Virus record (IMG/VR): IMGVR_UViG_3300042336_000327
Span: 62,001-126,000 of that record
Length of the DNA stretch: 64,000 nt
Source of the DNA: a virus
Reading direction: 5' to 3' (one strand)
Shown: positions 11,790 to 18,398 of the stretch, piece by piece
How positions within the stretch are numbered: position 1 is the first letter of the stretch
Layout: the number at the start of each line of letters is the position of its first letter
The notes under the pieces: model-generated
Databases searched by the model: none
What the model was told of the DNA's origin: nothing
The model's input: the letters and a program-made list of their open reading frames with translations, nothing else
Position numbers and translations under genes: made by a program

Positions 11790-14083
11790 GCAACGGAACG
11801 AAAGTCGTTAAGAGAAATGGTAAAACTGAACCACTTGATTTAAATAAACTCCACGTTATGGTGGAAGAAGCCTGCAAAGACCTAGCAGGTGTATCAGCAT
11901 CTCAGGTAGAGATGCAATCAGGCATTCAATTCTATGATGGTATCACTACCGCAGAGATTCAGGAGATTCTGATTCGTTCTGCTTCTGACCTGATTGATCT
12001 GGATCATCCCAACTATCAATTCGTTGCTGCTCGCCTGCTTCTGTTCGCCCTCCGTAAGCAGTTGTTTGGTCGTATGCATGAATGCCCCACAGTTAAGCAG
12101 CACGTCCTTCGTGCCGTTGGTAGAGGTGTCTATGACCCAGAAATTCTTACCCTATACTCTGATGATGAGTTTGATAAACTTCAGTCGTTTATTGATCATA
12201 GTCGTGACTATCTGTTCACTTATGCAGGTCTACGTCAAGTCGTTGATAAGTACCTCGTGCAGGACAGAAGTTCTAACGAACTTTATGAGACGCCACAGTT
12301 TATGTACCTTTTGATTGCGGCGACAATCTTTTCCAAGTATCCTAAAGAAACACGTTTAGATTACGTTAGGAAGTACTACGATGCAATCTCCAAGCACAAA
12401 ATCAACATTCCCACACCTATCATGGCGGGAGTGCGAACTCCACTTCGACAATATGCTAGCTGTGTTCTTGTTGATGTTGATGACACCCTCGATAGCATCT
12501 TTAGTTCTGATATGGCTATCGGCAGATATGTTGCACAAAGGGCGGGTATCGGCATCAACGCGGGTCGCATCCGTGGCATCAACAGCAAAATCAGAGGCGG
12601 AGAAGTTCAGCACACAGGTGTTGTCCCTTTCCTCAAAAAGTTTGAAGCAACTGTCCGATGCTGCACTCAAAATGGCATCAGAGGTGGATCAGCAACTGTC
12701 CATTTTCCAATCTGGCACCAAGAAATAGAAGATATTCTAGTATTGAAAAATAATAAAGGAACCGAAGATAATCGTGTTCGTAAGTTAGACTATAGTATCC
12801 AAATCTCCAAACTGTTCTATGAACGCTTCATCCGCAACGAAGAGATTTCTCTCTTCTCTCCCCACGCCGTTCCTGGCTTGTATGATGCTTTTGGTACTGA
12901 TGGATTTGACGAGTTGTATGTTCGTTATGAACGAGATGAGTCTATTCCAAGAAAAACTATCGGAGCTCAAGAACTCTTTTTGGACCTCCTGAAAGAGAGA
13001 GCAGAAACAGGTCGTTTGTACATTATGAACATTGACCACTGTAACTCTCACTCATCCTTTATGGATAAGGTTGAGATGAGCAATCTGTGCCAGGAAATTA
13101 CTCTACCTACCAAACCAATTCAACATATTGATGACCCAAATGGTGAGATTGCTCTATGCATACTTTCTGCTATTAATGTTGGAAAAATTCGGGATAACGA
13201 GGATCTTGAAGTGCTTTGCGATCTTGCTGTTCGCTCTCTTGATGAACTTATTGATTTTCAAGGATACCCCGTCAATGCAGCAGAAATCGCCACCAGGGCA
13301 CGTCGTTCGCTTGGGGTAGGGTTTATTGGTCTGGCACACTATCTCGCCAAGCACGGCGAGCATTACGACGATCCTGGTGCTTGGAGACTGGTACATGAAC
13401 TTACCGAAGCATTTCAGTATTACCTAATTCAGGCAACTGTTAATCTTTCGAAAGAAAAAGGTGCTTGTGAGTATAGCAGCCGAACAAAATATGGCAATGG
13501 CATTCTCCCGATTGATACATACAAGAAGGACGTTGATGAAATTGTACCTAACGAATTGAAGTATGATTGGGAGCATCTTAGAGAGCAGGTACTCAAATAC
13601 GGGGTACGGAACTCAACATTGTCCGCACAGATGCCATCGGAGAGCAGTTCCGTTGTGTCAAATGCAACCAACGGAATCGAACCACCTCGCGGATACTTGT
13701 CCGTTAAGAAGTCGAAGAAGGGACCACTCAAGCAGATTGTTCCCCAGTATCAAACACTTAAGAACAACTATACGCTGCTGTGGGATATGCCTAGCAATCG
13801 CGGGTATATTCATATTGTTGCTGTTATGCAAAAATTCTTCGATCAAGCGATTTCTGGAAACTGGTCCTATAATCCAGAAAATTACCCAGATAATGAAGTT
13901 CCTACTTCAGTAATGGCACAGGACCTTCTAACTACATATAAGTACGGCTGGAAAACCAGTTACTATCAAAATACTTATGACCATAAGACTGATGAGGTTG
14001 AAGAAACCAAACAGTCTCTTGATAACTTAATTTCCGATATTCTAGACACGGAGGAGGAAGATTGTGAGTCTTGTAAGATTTAA
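11786..14083 (+). CDS. nrdA: Ribonucleoside-diphosphate reductase class Ia, alpha subunit
   Basis: A 765-residue large subunit that reduces ribonucleotides to deoxyribonucleotides with NrdB. An N-terminal ATP-cone-like segment (KRNGKTEPLDLNKLHVMVEE) precedes the catalytic barrel; the active-site loop NLCQEITLP holds the Asn-Cys-Glu set, RGGSATVHFPIWH is also typical, and the C-terminal CESCKI carries the redox cysteine pair. No intein or intron interrupts it. Its synonymous usage looks more GC-rich than neighbouring accessory genes, consistent with long residence or high expression. Confidence 0.96.
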   Translation: MSNGTKVVKRNGKTEPLDLNKLHVMVEEACKDLAGVSASQVEMQSGIQFYDGITTAEIQEILIRSASDLIDLDHPNYQFVAARLLLFALRKQLFGRMHECPTVKQHVLRAVGRGVYDPEILTLYSDDEFDKLQSFIDHSRDYLFTYAGLRQVVDKYLVQDRSSNELYETPQFMYLLIAATIFSKYPKETRLDYVRKYYDAISKHKINIPTPIMAGVRTPLRQYASCVLVDVDDTLDSIFSSDMAIGRYVAQRAGIGINAGRIRGINSKIRGGEVQHTGVVPFLKKFEATVRCCTQNGIRGGSATVHFPIWHQEIEDILVLKNNKGTEDNRVRKLDYSIQISKLFYERFIRNEEISLFSPHAVPGLYDAFGTDGFDELYVRYERDESIPRKTIGAQELFLDLLKERAETGRLYIMNIDHCNSHSSFMDKVEMSNLCQEITLPTKPIQHIDDPNGEIALCILSAINVGKIRDNEDLEVLCDLAVRSLDELIDFQGYPVNAAEIATRARRSLGVGFIGLAHYLAKHGEHYDDPGAWRLVHELTEAFQYYLIQATVNLSKEKGACEYSSRTKYGNGILPIDTYKKDVDEIVPNELKYDWEHLREQVLKYGVRNSTLSAQMPSESSSVVSNATNGIEPPRGYLSVKKSKKGPLKQIVPQYQTLKNNYTLLWDMPSNRGYIHIVAVMQKFFDQAISGNWSYNPENYPDNEVPTSVMAQDLLTTYKYGWKTSYYQNTYDHKTDEVEETKQSLDNLISDILDTEEEDCESCKI

Positions 14084-14105
14084 AACAGGTTTGGAGGAAA
14101 AATCA

Positions 14106-15248
14106 ATGGTCGAATCAATGACCGTTTTTAATCCTCAGGAAGTAGATACCAAAAAGCAACCTATGTTTTTTGGACAACCACTGGGAATACAGAGATATGA
14201 TTCTTACAAATACCCAATCTTCGATAAACTAACCACACAGCAACTGGGTTACTTCTGGAGACCCGAAGAGGTTTCTCTTCAAAAAGATCGTAGCGACTAT
14301 CATATGCTACGCCCAGAGCAAAAGCATATCTTCACCAGCAACCTGAAGTATCAGGTGATGCTGGACTCAGTTCAGGGTAGGGGTCCTGGTATGGCATTTG
14401 CTCCATACTGCTCCCTTCCTGAACTGGAAGCGTGTATGAAGGTTTGGGAGTTTATGGAGATGATCCACTCCCGTTCATACACTTATATCATCAAGAATGT
14501 TTATTCGGACCCATCTGAAGTTTTTGATACGATTCTGAAAGAGGATCGTATTATGGAACGTGCCGTGAGTGTCACTCAGGCATATAACGATTTCATCAAC
14601 AGTGCCCAGCATTATGGTTCAACTAATGAATGGATTCATGCGTTAGAACAAGTACCATACGCACAAGAGGCAAGGTATGAACTCAAGAGAAAACTATTCA
14701 GAGCAGTTGCAAACGTTAATATTCTTGAAGGTATTCGCTTTTACGTCAGCTTCGCTTGTAGTTTTGCGTTTGGCGAACTCAAGCTTATGGAAGGAAGTGC
14801 AAAAATCATCTCACTGATTGCCCGTGATGAGAACCAACATTTGGTTATCACTCAGAATATTCTGAACAAATGGAAAGAGGGTGATGACCCTGAGATGGCA
14901 CGTATCTCCAAAGAAGAAGAGCAATGGTTTTACAAGACCTTTGAGAATGCTGTCAATCAAGAAAAACTTTGGGCAGAGTATCTGTTCAAGGATGGTTCTA
15001 TGATTGGTTTAAATGATAAACTTCTTCAGCAATATGTCGAGTGGATTGCCAATCGTAGAATGAAGGCAATTGGACTCAAACCACTTTATGATATTCCTGC
15101 GAAAAATAATCCACTTCCTTGGACTGAGCATTGGATCAGTTCTAAAGGTCTTCAAGTGGCGCCACAGCAAACGCAAGTGCAGTCATATATTGTTGGTGGT
15201 ATTAAGCAGGATGTTACCAAAGACTCTTTTGCTGGGTTCCAGTTGTGA
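14106..15248 (+). CDS. nrdB: Ribonucleoside-diphosphate reductase class Ia, beta subunit
   Basis: A 380-residue radical-generating small subunit. I chose ATG 14106 because GGAGG at 14093-14097 is well spaced and the next residues (MTVFNPQ, then QPMFFGQPLGIQRYD) align with T4 NrdB; the in-frame GTG 14064 lies inside nrdA. Di-iron ligands are visible in EFMEMIHSRSYT, EGIRFYVSFACSF and ARDENQHL. The C-terminus DVTKDSFAGFQL, the part that should dock NrdA, is encoded a second time about 1.1 kb downstream, beyond an inserted endonuclease cassette. Confidence 0.96.
   Translation: MVESMTVFNPQEVDTKKQPMFFGQPLGIQRYDSYKYPIFDKLTTQQLGYFWRPEEVSLQKDRSDYHMLRPEQKHIFTSNLKYQVMLDSVQGRGPGMAFAPYCSLPELEACMKVWEFMEMIHSRSYTYIIKNVYSDPSEVFDTILKEDRIMERAVSVTQAYNDFINSAQHYGSTNEWIHALEQVPYAQEARYELKRKLFRAVANVNILEGIRFYVSFACSFAFGELKLMEGSAKIISLIARDENQHLVITQNILNKWKEGDDPEMARISKEEEQWFYKTFENAVNQEKLWAEYLFKDGSMIGLNDKLLQQYVEWIANRRMKAIGLKPLYDIPAKNNPLPWTEHWISSKGLQVAPQQTQVQSYIVGGIKQDVTKDSFAGFQL
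15211..15248 (+). repeat. nrdB 3'-end segment, copy 1 of a 38-bp imperfect direct repeat
   Basis: The last 38 bp of nrdB recur at 16311-16348, exactly 1100 bp downstream. By eye 29 of 38 bases match, including the first ten. Read in the nrdB frame both copies give almost the same peptide, VTKDSFAGFQL here and VTKDTFSGFQL downstream, each followed by TGA. Confidence 0.85.
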
Positions 15249-15307
15249 TTGACATTAAGACTGAAATAGTGTATTATATAAATAATAATAGGTAAGTTCA
15301 GTCTTAA
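15249..15307 (+). promoter_or_regulatory. Sigma70-like promoter, late promoter and 11-bp inverted repeat before an endonuclease gene
   Basis: TTGACA (15249-15254) and TATTAT (15272-15277) are 17 bp apart. An exact TATAAATA late motif lies at 15277-15284. TTAAGACTGAA (15255-15265) is a perfect inverted repeat of TTCAGTCTTAA (15297-15307), the 3' arm ending one base before ATG 15309. A transcript reading through from nrdB could fold with the ribosome-binding region (AGGTAAG) next to the 3' arm. A transcript begun at either internal promoter would lack the 5' arm. Confidence 0.7.
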
Positions 15308-15308
15308 A

Positions 15309-15923
15309 ATGAATAATTATATTCTTTACTACTACTTAAGGGAGGACTTTGGTTCTCCCTTTTATGTGGGATATGGGAAACCAAGAAGAATACACGCAAA
15401 ACATTTGAGAAGTAATGGTGCAAATCTATTACCACCAAGAGAAAGAAGATGGGTTGTAAAATCTGGTCTTACTAAAGAAGAAGCAATAGAGTTAGAAATA
15501 AAACACATAGCACTTTGGAAAAGAGAGTGTGATGGTGGTGTATTATTAAATCAAAATCTTGGTGGTGAAGGAAAACCTGGAGGACAAAAAACAATAGGTT
15601 TTGGTGGCAGAAAACACACCGAAGAAGCAAAGAAAAAAATAAGCGAAAAGGTTGCTGGTAAAAATAATCCAAGATATGGTGTTAAACTTTCACAAGAAAC
15701 AAGAAATAAAATAAGTCAAAATAGAGCACCAAAATTTGGAAAAGATAATCCAAACTCTAAAACTTGGAAAATCACTTCTCCAGAAAATAAAGAATATATT
15801 ATTGTTGGTGGATTAAAGAAATTTTGTAAATCTCAAAGTATTTCTTATGCAACAATGAATGCAGCAATACTTTATGACAGAAAAGGACCGAGAAAAAATG
15901 GATGGTCAATTGAGAAAATTTAG
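15309..15923 (+). CDS. GIY-YIG family homing endonuclease
   Basis: A 204-residue protein. The N-terminal YILYYYLRED and FYVGYGKPRR segments stand for the GIY and YIG elements, followed by an Arg (RRIHAKHLRS) and a Glu in EAIELEIKHI. The middle has NUMOD3-like DNA-binding repeats (GRKHTEEAKKKISEKVAG, KLSQETRNKIS). The C-terminus (VGGLKKFCKSQSISYATMN) looks like a NUMOD1-type helix-turn-helix. Such free-standing endonucleases cut an allele lacking the element and spread by repair. It lies between nrdB and a second copy of the nrdB tail, and is more AT-rich than nrdAB. Confidence 0.88.
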   Translation: MNNYILYYYLREDFGSPFYVGYGKPRRIHAKHLRSNGANLLPPRERRWVVKSGLTKEEAIELEIKHIALWKRECDGGVLLNQNLGGEGKPGGQKTIGFGGRKHTEEAKKKISEKVAGKNNPRYGVKLSQETRNKISQNRAPKFGKDNPNSKTWKITSPENKEYIIVGGLKKFCKSQSISYATMNAAILYDRKGPRKNGWSIEKI

Positions 15924-16311
15924 AGTATCACTACCTGAAGATGAGTGTGTGATGAAACTTCAGGAGTATTGTAAGTTTTCTTCTACTTTACTGAAGATCC
16001 CTGTTATTAAAAAACCATTATGTATTGATGCAAACTGCCACAATAATGTAAATCATTATGTGAATACTTATGGCGGAGAAAAGATAAGTGGATACTATTT
16101 GATTACAGATACTGAAGATGAAACTTATGGATGTGCAATATATCATAGTATCTGGAAAAATACTTATGGAGATCTAGTTGATATAACTCCATTTGAGGAT
16201 GGTAGAGAATATAATATGTTTTCCGTTATGAATACTACAGAATATTACTCTGGGGTTGCATATGATGGAAAAAGATATAAATTATTAGAACCAGGACTTA
16301 ACATAATCTAA
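15898..16311 (+). CDS. Unknown protein within the endonuclease cassette (137 aa)
   Basis: I chose ATG 15898, inside the last codons of the endonuclease; an upstream in-frame start would overlap it further. The product (MDGQLRKFRVSLPEDE, later YGCAIYHSIWKNTYGD) has no domain I recognise, no signal peptide and no membrane helix. The stop overlaps the next ATG (TAATG). Because it lies between the two nrdB-tail copies, it probably arrived with the endonuclease. Confidence 0.65.
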   Translation: MDGQLRKFRVSLPEDECVMKLQEYCKFSSTLLKIPVIKKPLCIDANCHNNVNHYVNTYGGEKISGYYLITDTEDETYGCAIYHSIWKNTYGDLVDITPFEDGREYNMFSVMNTTEYYSGVAYDGKRYKLLEPGLNII

Positions 16312-16348
16312 TGTTACCAAAGATACTTTCTCAGGATTCCAACTATGA
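16311..16348 (+). repeat. Second copy of the nrdB 3' end
   Basis: The imperfect direct repeat of 15211-15248. Read in the nrdB frame from 16310 it gives NVTKDTFSGFQL and then TGA. Substitutions are mostly synonymous or conservative (Ser to Thr, Ala to Ser), implying both copies diverged while coding for a working NrdB C-terminus rather than after duplication here. Confidence 0.8.
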
Positions 16349-16472
16349 TGAATGGTGCGAACAGGAAATCCTGAACGCATATCAGGAAGCGGCAGAGTGC
16401 GATGAGTTTCTTTTTGGAGATTATGATTATTCCAAAGAATGGTTGGGTAAATGCAATGACGATGTGAAATGA
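16311..16472 (+). CDS. Small acidic protein whose 5' end overlies the duplicated nrdB tail (53 aa)
   Basis: ATG 16311 to TGA 16470-16472 encodes an acidic, aromatic-rich peptide (EQEILNAYQEAAECDEF). Its first 13 codons lie in the +1 frame of the second nrdB-tail copy. The matching ATG also exists inside intact nrdB at 15211, where the +1 frame closes at 15252. The simplest reading is that this gene once overlapped the nrdB 3' end directly, and the insertion duplicated the shared stretch so both genes stayed complete. Function unknown. Confidence 0.65.
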   Translation: MLPKILSQDSNYDEWCEQEILNAYQEAAECDEFLFGDYDYSKEWLGKCNDDVK

Positions 16473-16495
16473 GGGTCTTCGGACCCTCTTTTTTT
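16471..16495 (+). terminator. Rho-independent terminator with TTCG loop
   Basis: GAGGGTC (16471-16477) and GACCCTC (16482-16488) pair perfectly around a TTCG tetraloop, followed by seven T's. The stem begins inside the stop codon of the 53-residue gene and ends the nrdAB-endonuclease unit. Confidence 0.93.
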
Positions 16496-16502
16496 ATAAA
16501 TA
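16495..16502 (+). promoter_or_regulatory. Late promoter TATAAATA
   Basis: An exact TATAAATA starts on the last T of the terminator and lies 28 bp upstream of ATG 16531. Confidence 0.68.
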
Positions 16503-16530
16503 AAATTATAGAAAAATCATAAAAGAAAAG

Positions 16531-17841
16531 ATGTCTAGACTTACAGGTAATGAAGTTGCAAATATGATGGAAGCATATAGTGCTGTCTATGCTCCTCAAC
16601 AAGAAGAAGTTGTAGAAAATGTTGAGAAGATCGATGAAAAAATGGATGTATTTTCTACACCTGCTATGAAATCTGCACAACAACAATCTGCCACTCAACT
16701 TTTGACAGGTAAAAAACCACCAGCTAAACCAGATTATCTTAAACCAGCTGTAACTGCAGGAGCAGCAAAGTTCTTCACTAAACCAGGTGCTGAAACTGAT
16801 AAATCTTGGGAAGTCGCTAGACAAAAAGCTGGTGTATCAAAACCTACACGTCCAGCAGGTTCAGGTAATCCTCCAGCAGGTTCAGGTAATCCTCCAGCAG
16901 GTTCAGGGAATCCACCAGCAGGCACTAAAACCGCTCCTGCTGCCTCTTCAGTCGTTCTTGCCAAGCAAGGTGGTGTAGAAGGTAAATTAGATAAGGCAAC
17001 TGGTAAATTCACTGCAGGTGCCTTTACAGGTGCTGAGAAAGAGCGTTATGTTGCTCGTGGTGGTAGTGCTGCTCCTTCTGCACCAAAACCAGCGGCACCA
17101 GCACAACCAAAGATTAAACAAGATGTCGCTGATATTAAAGCAATGCAAACGGCTTCTCAGATGAGACAGGCAGGTGCAAATGTTACATCAGACCAATTAA
17201 AGACACCACCATCAACCGCTGTTAATACATCACAAGCGACCGCAGCAGCATCTAATCTTAAAGCACCAGACCCCGCCACAAAATTCTCACAGGGAACTGC
17301 TGCAACCCCTAAACCAGTAGAGAATAAACCAACAACAGGTTTTGATCTTGCTAAAAAGGGTGTAAATCTTCAATCCCAATCCTTTGATATATTTGATATC
17401 ATCAAGGGTCATCTTCTTGATGAGGGTTATGCCGAAACTGAAAAAGCAGCTCTTGCTATTATGGCAAATATGGGTGAAGGGTGGAAAAAAGAAATTCTTG
17501 ATGAGATTGCACCTGCATTACTTGCTGGAGGTGTGCTTGCTAGTGGTGCTTTAGCGGCTATGGCAGCAAAAAATAAAATTGACAGAAGCAATGCTGCCAG
17601 AGCAAATACTAATCCATTTGCAAATCAACAAACTAAACCACTTCCTAGCACTCCTTCACCATTTGCTAAACCAGCAAGTAAGGATGACAGTGGTAGATTA
17701 ACAACCTATGGTGCTGGCGGCGGTGCTGCAGCAGAAAAAACAGGTCAAACTCGTGCCCAAGTTATGCAGCAAGGTGGTAAGAATCTTGAAAATAAAAACA
17801 AAATCAAACCAGTAAATCAAGGAACAGATTTCGGTCGTTGA
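16531..17841 (+). CDS. Ala/Pro-rich protein with a DEGY helical motif, probable virion or internal-head protein
   Basis: A 436-residue low-complexity protein. Residues 110-130 hold three tandem PAGSGNP units, copied at DNA level as well. Near residue 287 is the block FDIFDIIKGHLLDEGYAETE, followed by KAALAIMANMGEGWKKEIL, a motif recurring in unrelated cyanomyovirus proteins. A hydrophobic Ala-rich segment follows (LLAGGVLASGALAAMAA). Tripeptides of the (I/L)DE type (KIDE, LLDE, ILDE) match the prohead-protease cleavage rule. Preceded by a late promoter and followed by a terminator, it is a single-gene late unit. Function unknown. Confidence 0.7.
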   Translation: MSRLTGNEVANMMEAYSAVYAPQQEEVVENVEKIDEKMDVFSTPAMKSAQQQSATQLLTGKKPPAKPDYLKPAVTAGAAKFFTKPGAETDKSWEVARQKAGVSKPTRPAGSGNPPAGSGNPPAGSGNPPAGTKTAPAASSVVLAKQGGVEGKLDKATGKFTAGAFTGAEKERYVARGGSAAPSAPKPAAPAQPKIKQDVADIKAMQTASQMRQAGANVTSDQLKTPPSTAVNTSQATAAASNLKAPDPATKFSQGTAATPKPVENKPTTGFDLAKKGVNLQSQSFDIFDIIKGHLLDEGYAETEKAALAIMANMGEGWKKEILDEIAPALLAGGVLASGALAAMAAKNKIDRSNAARANTNPFANQQTKPLPSTPSPFAKPASKDDSGRLTTYGAGGGAAAEKTGQTRAQVMQQGGKNLENKNKIKPVNQGTDFGR

Positions 17842-17948: not shown

Positions 17949-18398
17949 ATGAGTTATGAAAACCCTTGGAGATTCAATGGGGAAATTTTTGAGTCTTCTG
18001 ATATTCAAGATAATTTTGGTTTCGTTTATCATATTCACTGTAATAAAACTGGTCGTAGTTATATTGGTAGAAAGTATTTCTGGTCTTTCCGCACACCAAG
18101 AGGAAAATCTAGAAAAGTTAAGTCAGAGTCCGATTGGAAAAGATATTACGGCTCCTGTCCTGAACTCAAAGCCGATATTGACATTTGGGGAAAAGCATCC
18201 TGCGACAGAAGAATACTTAGCCTCCATAAAACAAAAGGACAGTGTAACTACGAAGAAACAAAACAGCTTTTCCTAAATAATGTGTTGATCGAGTCTCTTG
18301 ACGATGGGAGTCCAGCGTATTACAATAGTAATATCCTAGGACGCTACATGCGAAAAGATTATGGAAATTTTGGAAAAGACTCTGAAACAATCACATGA
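17949..18398 (+). CDS. GIY-YIG-like nuclease (149 aa)
   Basis: The segment FGFVYHIHCNKTGRSYIGRK (residues ~25-44) fits the GIY-YIG fold: a beta strand, a loop, then YIG with a following Arg/Lys. A downstream SDWKRYYGSCPEL block, an Arg-rich CDRRILSL and a late Glu (NYEETKQLF) would complete the site. No NUMOD repeats are visible, so this may be a resident phage nuclease rather than a mobile one. DNA target unknown. Confidence 0.7.
   Translation: MSYENPWRFNGEIFESSDIQDNFGFVYHIHCNKTGRSYIGRKYFWSFRTPRGKSRKVKSESDWKRYYGSCPELKADIDIWGKASCDRRILSLHKTKGQCNYEETKQLFLNNVLIESLDDGSPAYYNSNILGRYMRKDYGNFGKDSETIT

Follow-up and report, generated by a model that had tools for sequence, protein, structure and literature searches.

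The window, a 64,000-nucleotide stretch, belongs to a 137-kb virus record in IMG/VR, a T4-like cyanophage contig, and its nrdA and nrdB genes resemble the T4-like cyanophage versions. The ribonucleotide reductase small subunit gene nrdB lies at 14064-15248 on the plus strand, as do all features of the locus given below (Pfam PF00268, E 1e-54), and it is most similar, at about 80% DNA identity, to nrdB of the Synechococcus phages S-SRM01 and S-SKS1. Transcription running on from nrdB would be the source of a read-through transcript. The nrdB stop codon (15246-15248) is separated by 60 bases from the ATG (15309-15311) of a homing endonuclease gene (15309-15923). These 60 bases hold, in order, a sigma70-like -35 hexamer TTGACA (15249-15254), the 5' arm of a hairpin, TTAAGACTGAA (15255-15265), a sigma70-like -10 hexamer TATTAT (15272-15277) at a 17-nt spacing from TTGACA, an exact match to the T4-type late promoter box TATAAATA (15277-15284) that shares base 15277 with TATTAT, and the 3' arm TTCAGTCTTAA (15297-15307). 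Both arms were assigned from the sequence and from covariation among relatives. With T4 spacing the late transcript would start at 15290, the sixth base after the box. The preliminary description of this locus had an 11-bp perfect inverted repeat bracketing both promoters, with its 3' arm ending one base before the ATG. The placement of the 3' arm was borne out (arm end 15307, ATG 15309) and TATTAT and TATAAATA are enclosed in the loop, but TTGACA directly precedes the 5' arm and is therefore outside the hairpin.

The gene encodes a 204 amino acid protein with a GIY-YIG catalytic motif and a NUMOD3 repeat (E 7e-14), and it matched phrog_314 (E 3e-16), a PHROG homing endonuclease family. Residues Y7, Y19, G21, G23, R27, E63 and N81 were invariant (two subfamilies), as expected of a GIY-YIG nuclease. 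The Pfam GIY-YIG model gave no match to the endonuclease, the profile match to a GIY-YIG PDB entry was weak (E 0.03), and a structure search with a moderate AF2 model returned no significant GIY-YIG match, the top fold match being I-HmuI (E 0.03). The DNA-binding tail was NUMOD3 in 21 of 22 members and I-TevI_DNA-bd in one. The gene product is predicted to be a GIY-YIG/NUMOD3-type homing endonuclease. An intron-encoded endonuclease was also considered and rejected, as no Rfam intron was found at 14000-16600 up to E 1 and the upstream nrdB reading frame is intact.

The 3' end of nrdB is present twice, at 15210-15248 before the endonuclease cassette and at 16312-16350 after it. The right edge of the cassette is set by the downstream copy, which ends in VTKDTFSGFQL and a stop codon and matches the nrdB loci that have no endonuclease (L085 and L088). 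A short ORF (15904-16311; phrog_37148, E 3e-7) ends exactly at this edge and travels with the cassette, and the junction downstream of it was identical in many relatives. The endonuclease-free loci continue like the downstream copy, so the upstream tail came in with the cassette as a replacement and the native nrdB tail was displaced. In one relative (L049:3001-3612) the promoter leader and the left part of the downstream junction were identical to those of the window, and the native nrdB tail and the next gene differed from the window's. The occupied and empty sites and this different background support mobility of the cassette, and the sequences suggest a putative homing target near the GAT-GTTACC codons of nrdB.

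Additional endonuclease genes were seen at and near such loci. Four loci carried a second, different endonuclease upstream of nrdB, behind an apparent nrdA 3' end (L065:974, L160:1471, L018:1030 and L109:2085), each with its own hairpin and the late box as the loop. Another locus had a different GIY-YIG endonuclease with a LEM-3-type domain directly behind nrdB (L132:2454-3185), and the stem around its late box (AAACTGAA/TTCAGTTT) was similar, as if the leader had been swapped between genes. The window itself contains a SegE-type GIY-YIG gene at 17949-18398 (Pfam E 1e-50); a GATAAATA box lies 29 bases before it, and its stem is only weak.

The window contained five perfect inverted repeats of at least 11 bp with loops of less than 45 nt, as compared to 0-2 per dinucleotide shuffle (8 shuffles). 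A late box lay inside one of the five, the nrdB-endonuclease leader, and inside none in the 8 shuffles. The count of TATAAATA alone in the window was close to expectation (5 copies, 4.5 expected), and the fold of the 131-nt leader alone was only mildly unusual and not significant by single-sequence folding statistics (z -1.7). Judged from sequence, the repeat with an enclosed late box is an unusual combination, and the strong evidence for the predicted hairpin is its conservation. We retrieved 80 viral contigs encoding nrdB-linked relatives of the endonuclease (64-100% identity), and the endonuclease gene was directly behind nrdB in all 80. These contigs gave 37 distinct intergenic sequences, and in 37 of 37 a stem folded around the late box, beginning within about 10 bases of the nrdB stop and ending a few bases from the ATG. 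The box in the loop was TATAAATA, found in nearly all relatives, or a one-base variant, and the stem was much longer in some relatives (e.g. L075). Changes on both sides that preserved pairing occurred at 8 of 17 stem pairs in an alignment of 34 sequences, as compared to 3.9 +/- 1.0 after shuffling, and the number of cells was 22 as compared to 7.6. The covariation signal collapsed when the strands were slid against each other by 1-3 columns. Separate compensations were found in L057 (GACCGAAC/GTTCGGTC) and in L068 (AAAACTGAAGTGG/CCCACTTTAGTTTT).

Accessibility of the start region was calculated as the cost of opening the bases around the AUG. Folding the nrdB read-through RNA against the late transcript was a check proposed in the preliminary description and its outcome agreed with the proposal: opening of -18 to +3 was computed to cost 13.0 kcal/mol in the read-through RNA and 3.6 kcal/mol in RNA from the predicted late start at 15290. 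Deletion of the 5' arm alone gave a cost of 7.1 kcal/mol, and RNA from a sigma70-like start near 15284 was also unmasked (3.8 kcal/mol). Across the 37 relatives the mean cost of opening -12 to +3 was 13.2 in read-through RNA and 5.0 in late RNA, and the mean for 64 genes of the window was 5.6. The predicted gain in accessibility was small or nil in four relatives (L016, L019, L027 and L029). From these costs we predict that read-through RNA is poorly translated and loop-started RNA well translated. The idea of a hidden start signal held in part: the start region is covered by the stem, but a well-placed Shine-Dalgarno sequence is absent. An AGG at 15290-15292 lies 16 nt before the ATG, and the relatives do not conserve it. 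As there is no well-placed Shine-Dalgarno, the mask would cover the bases next to the AUG.

We consider it likely, with a probability of roughly 0.77, that the leader is the regulatory region of a free-standing selfish GIY-YIG endonuclease in which read-through RNA is masked and RNA started in the loop is translated. In this mechanism the nrdA-nrdB run-on RNA would carry both arms and form a stem of 11-12 bp in which the bases as far as the AUG are buried, keeping the endonuclease untranslated from this RNA. Transcripts initiated within the loop, chiefly at the late box TATAAATA, would lack the 5' arm, leaving the start open for translation, and the overlapping sigma70-like hexamers may supply an extra start that would likewise be unmasked. 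We infer the position of the late start, the actual repression, its timing and the pairing in RNA instead of DNA.

The late box is a credible promoter on sequence grounds, since cyanophage late promoters have been described as NATAAATA (PMC2984593) and, of 13 ATAAATA copies on the plus strand of the window, 9 sit 20-41 nt ahead of a gene start. The sigma70-like pair leads to a different account, possible though considerably less probable than the masking mechanism, in which the gene is driven early as well as late by sigma70 and late promoters that overlap and the hairpin only shields it from nrdB read-through. The TTGACA-17-TATTAT pair is close to the sigma70 consensus and overlaps the late box, its transcript would be unmasked at 3.8 kcal/mol, and overlapping early and late promoters have been proposed for cyanophage middle genes (PMC2984593). 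Among the 37 distinct relatives, TTGACN at the 17-nt spacing to TATTAT was kept in 22, changed in 4 and absent from 11. Retention in 22 of 37 although the sixth base varies freely favors a working sigma70 promoter, whereas the persistence of the hairpin and late box in the 15 relatives with a lost or altered -35 argues against this account. As a start near 15284 would also leave out the 5' arm, the preliminary description's proposal of synthesis limited to late infection was weakened; late-only expression would hold only if the sigma70-like promoter is weak or silent.

The repeat could also act as a DNA element, either an operator for an autorepressor or a structural palindrome at the border of the cassette, and we regard this as improbable. 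I-TevI represses itself through an operator over its late promoter, which provides a precedent for repression by operator binding (PMC2988022), and the stems are nearly perfect Watson-Crick helices with few G-U pairs. G-U pairs did not exceed A-C mismatches in the nrdB-group stems (5 versus 5) and the excess in the wider set of endonuclease stems was suggestive only (10 versus 4, p 0.18); as G-U pairs were not clearly more frequent than A-C mismatches, this test does not separate RNA pairing from a DNA palindrome. An operator would be expected to resemble the homing target in the manner of I-TevI, but the best local match of the promoter region to the putative target region in nrdB was no better than shuffled. 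Also against a DNA element, related endonucleases have stems of unrelated sequence that keep their register to the AUG. That the hairpin mainly serves nrdB, as a 3' stem stabilizing or ending its mRNA, is very improbable. The stem does start about 10 bases or less after the nrdB stop in the relatives, but it is AU-rich without a U-tract, it was not seen at the inspected endonuclease-free nrdB loci, and an equivalent layout was found behind unrelated genes (DNA polymerase and hypothetical genes) where an endonuclease comes next.

Distant endonucleases (32-43% identical) occupy other sites in other cyanophages, and in MA01, B23, S-B68 and S-CREM2 stems of unrelated sequence end just before the endonuclease ATG. 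We assembled a wider set of about 150 loci with 146 distinct endonuclease upstream regions, 117 of them with a late box. A Watson-Crick stem score of at least 9 around the late box was obtained for 105 of the 117 endonucleases and for 19 of 253 other late-box genes (odds ratio 108), the comparison genes being from the same loci, collected through endonucleases and nrdB, so that the sampling is not fully independent. Nine of these 19 other stem-bearing genes were endonucleases by HMM (HNH, GIY-YIG, SegE) and 4 more were alike by sequence. When the whole B23 genome was scanned without selection, 28 late-box genes were ranked by stem score, and the top three have GIY-YIG-like N-termini, two of them judged so by eye only. 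The best stem score among 11 late-box genes in the window was that of the nrdB-linked endonuclease gene. Endonucleases that follow uvsY in ACG-2014f and RN05-S lacked the hairpin, as did one endonuclease in S-SRM01. As far as the sequences indicate, the hairpin and late-box layout is a mark of cyanophage homing endonucleases generally, not universally. One GIY-YIG endonuclease of phage B23 (L320:41542-42165) is labelled 'translation initiation factor 2' in GenBank, a likely misannotation.

The endonucleases outside the nrdB group showed additional leader features. By a strict rule, 39 of 66 had an intrinsic terminator in the loop. In 52 of 66 a second TAAATA box preceded the 5' arm at a short, near-fixed distance, as compared to none of 197 more upstream stretches. 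L166, L167, L171 and about 60 loci of L173-L319 have these elements arranged as outer TAAATA, 5' arm, intrinsic terminator, TATAAATA, 3' arm and ATG. It is conceivable but unlikely that several families share a portable leader and that in this subgroup a separate 5'-arm RNA of about 50-70 nt, complementary to the leader of the endonuclease mRNA, pairs with it in trans and limits it even late; the separate RNA is speculation and would exclude the window's gene.

A hairpin combined with a late promoter is used by T4 I-TevI, T4 segB and Aeh1 mobE (PMC2988022). As predicted for the window's gene, transcripts of I-TevI from upstream fold over the start and late RNA begins inside the hairpin, and I-TevI is also a GIY-YIG enzyme (PMC2988022, PMC3014915). 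The window's gene differs from I-TevI, which lies in the td intron, in being free-standing behind nrdB, in having no well-placed Shine-Dalgarno and in that an operator resembling the target region was not found by the local match described above. Compensatory pairing, the steady placement of the late box, the accessibility calculations and the unrelated stems at other cyanophage homing endonucleases support the I-TevI-style logic that had been proposed for this locus. Aeh1 mobE and T4 segB are free-standing homing endonucleases like the one described here, and mobE likewise belongs to a ribonucleotide reductase locus; limitation of translation by the hairpin was shown for mobE and implicated for segB (PMC3014915, PMC2988022). 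mobE encodes an HNH enzyme and lies within a reductase gene in a different phage group, whereas the window's cassette sits behind nrdB and carries a replacement nrdB tail. The leader of T4 lysozyme gene e is similar in that a stem in the early RNA represses about 100-fold and TATAAATA falls within the sequence that encodes the 5' strand (PMC3014915), but gene e is the phage's own host-function gene and not a mobile element. The free-standing homing endonuclease near psbA in S-PM2 is likewise from a cyanophage and raises its own regulatory RNA question (CfrI antisense RNA, PMC2984593), though with another target and another RNA arrangement. Our search of the open literature found no report of the hairpin arrangement in cyanophages; a report elsewhere is possible.

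The mechanism itself is ordinary and of the I-TevI, segB and mobE kind, and its occurrence is wider than the preliminary description could see. The finding extends to cyanobacterial viruses the T4 rule that an RNA hairpin holds homing endonucleases back until late infection, with comparative evidence far deeper than for the few T4 cases. It also suggests a candidate signature, a late box between complementary arms beside an ATG, that may flag homing endonucleases, HNH enzymes included, which are often annotated as hypothetical.
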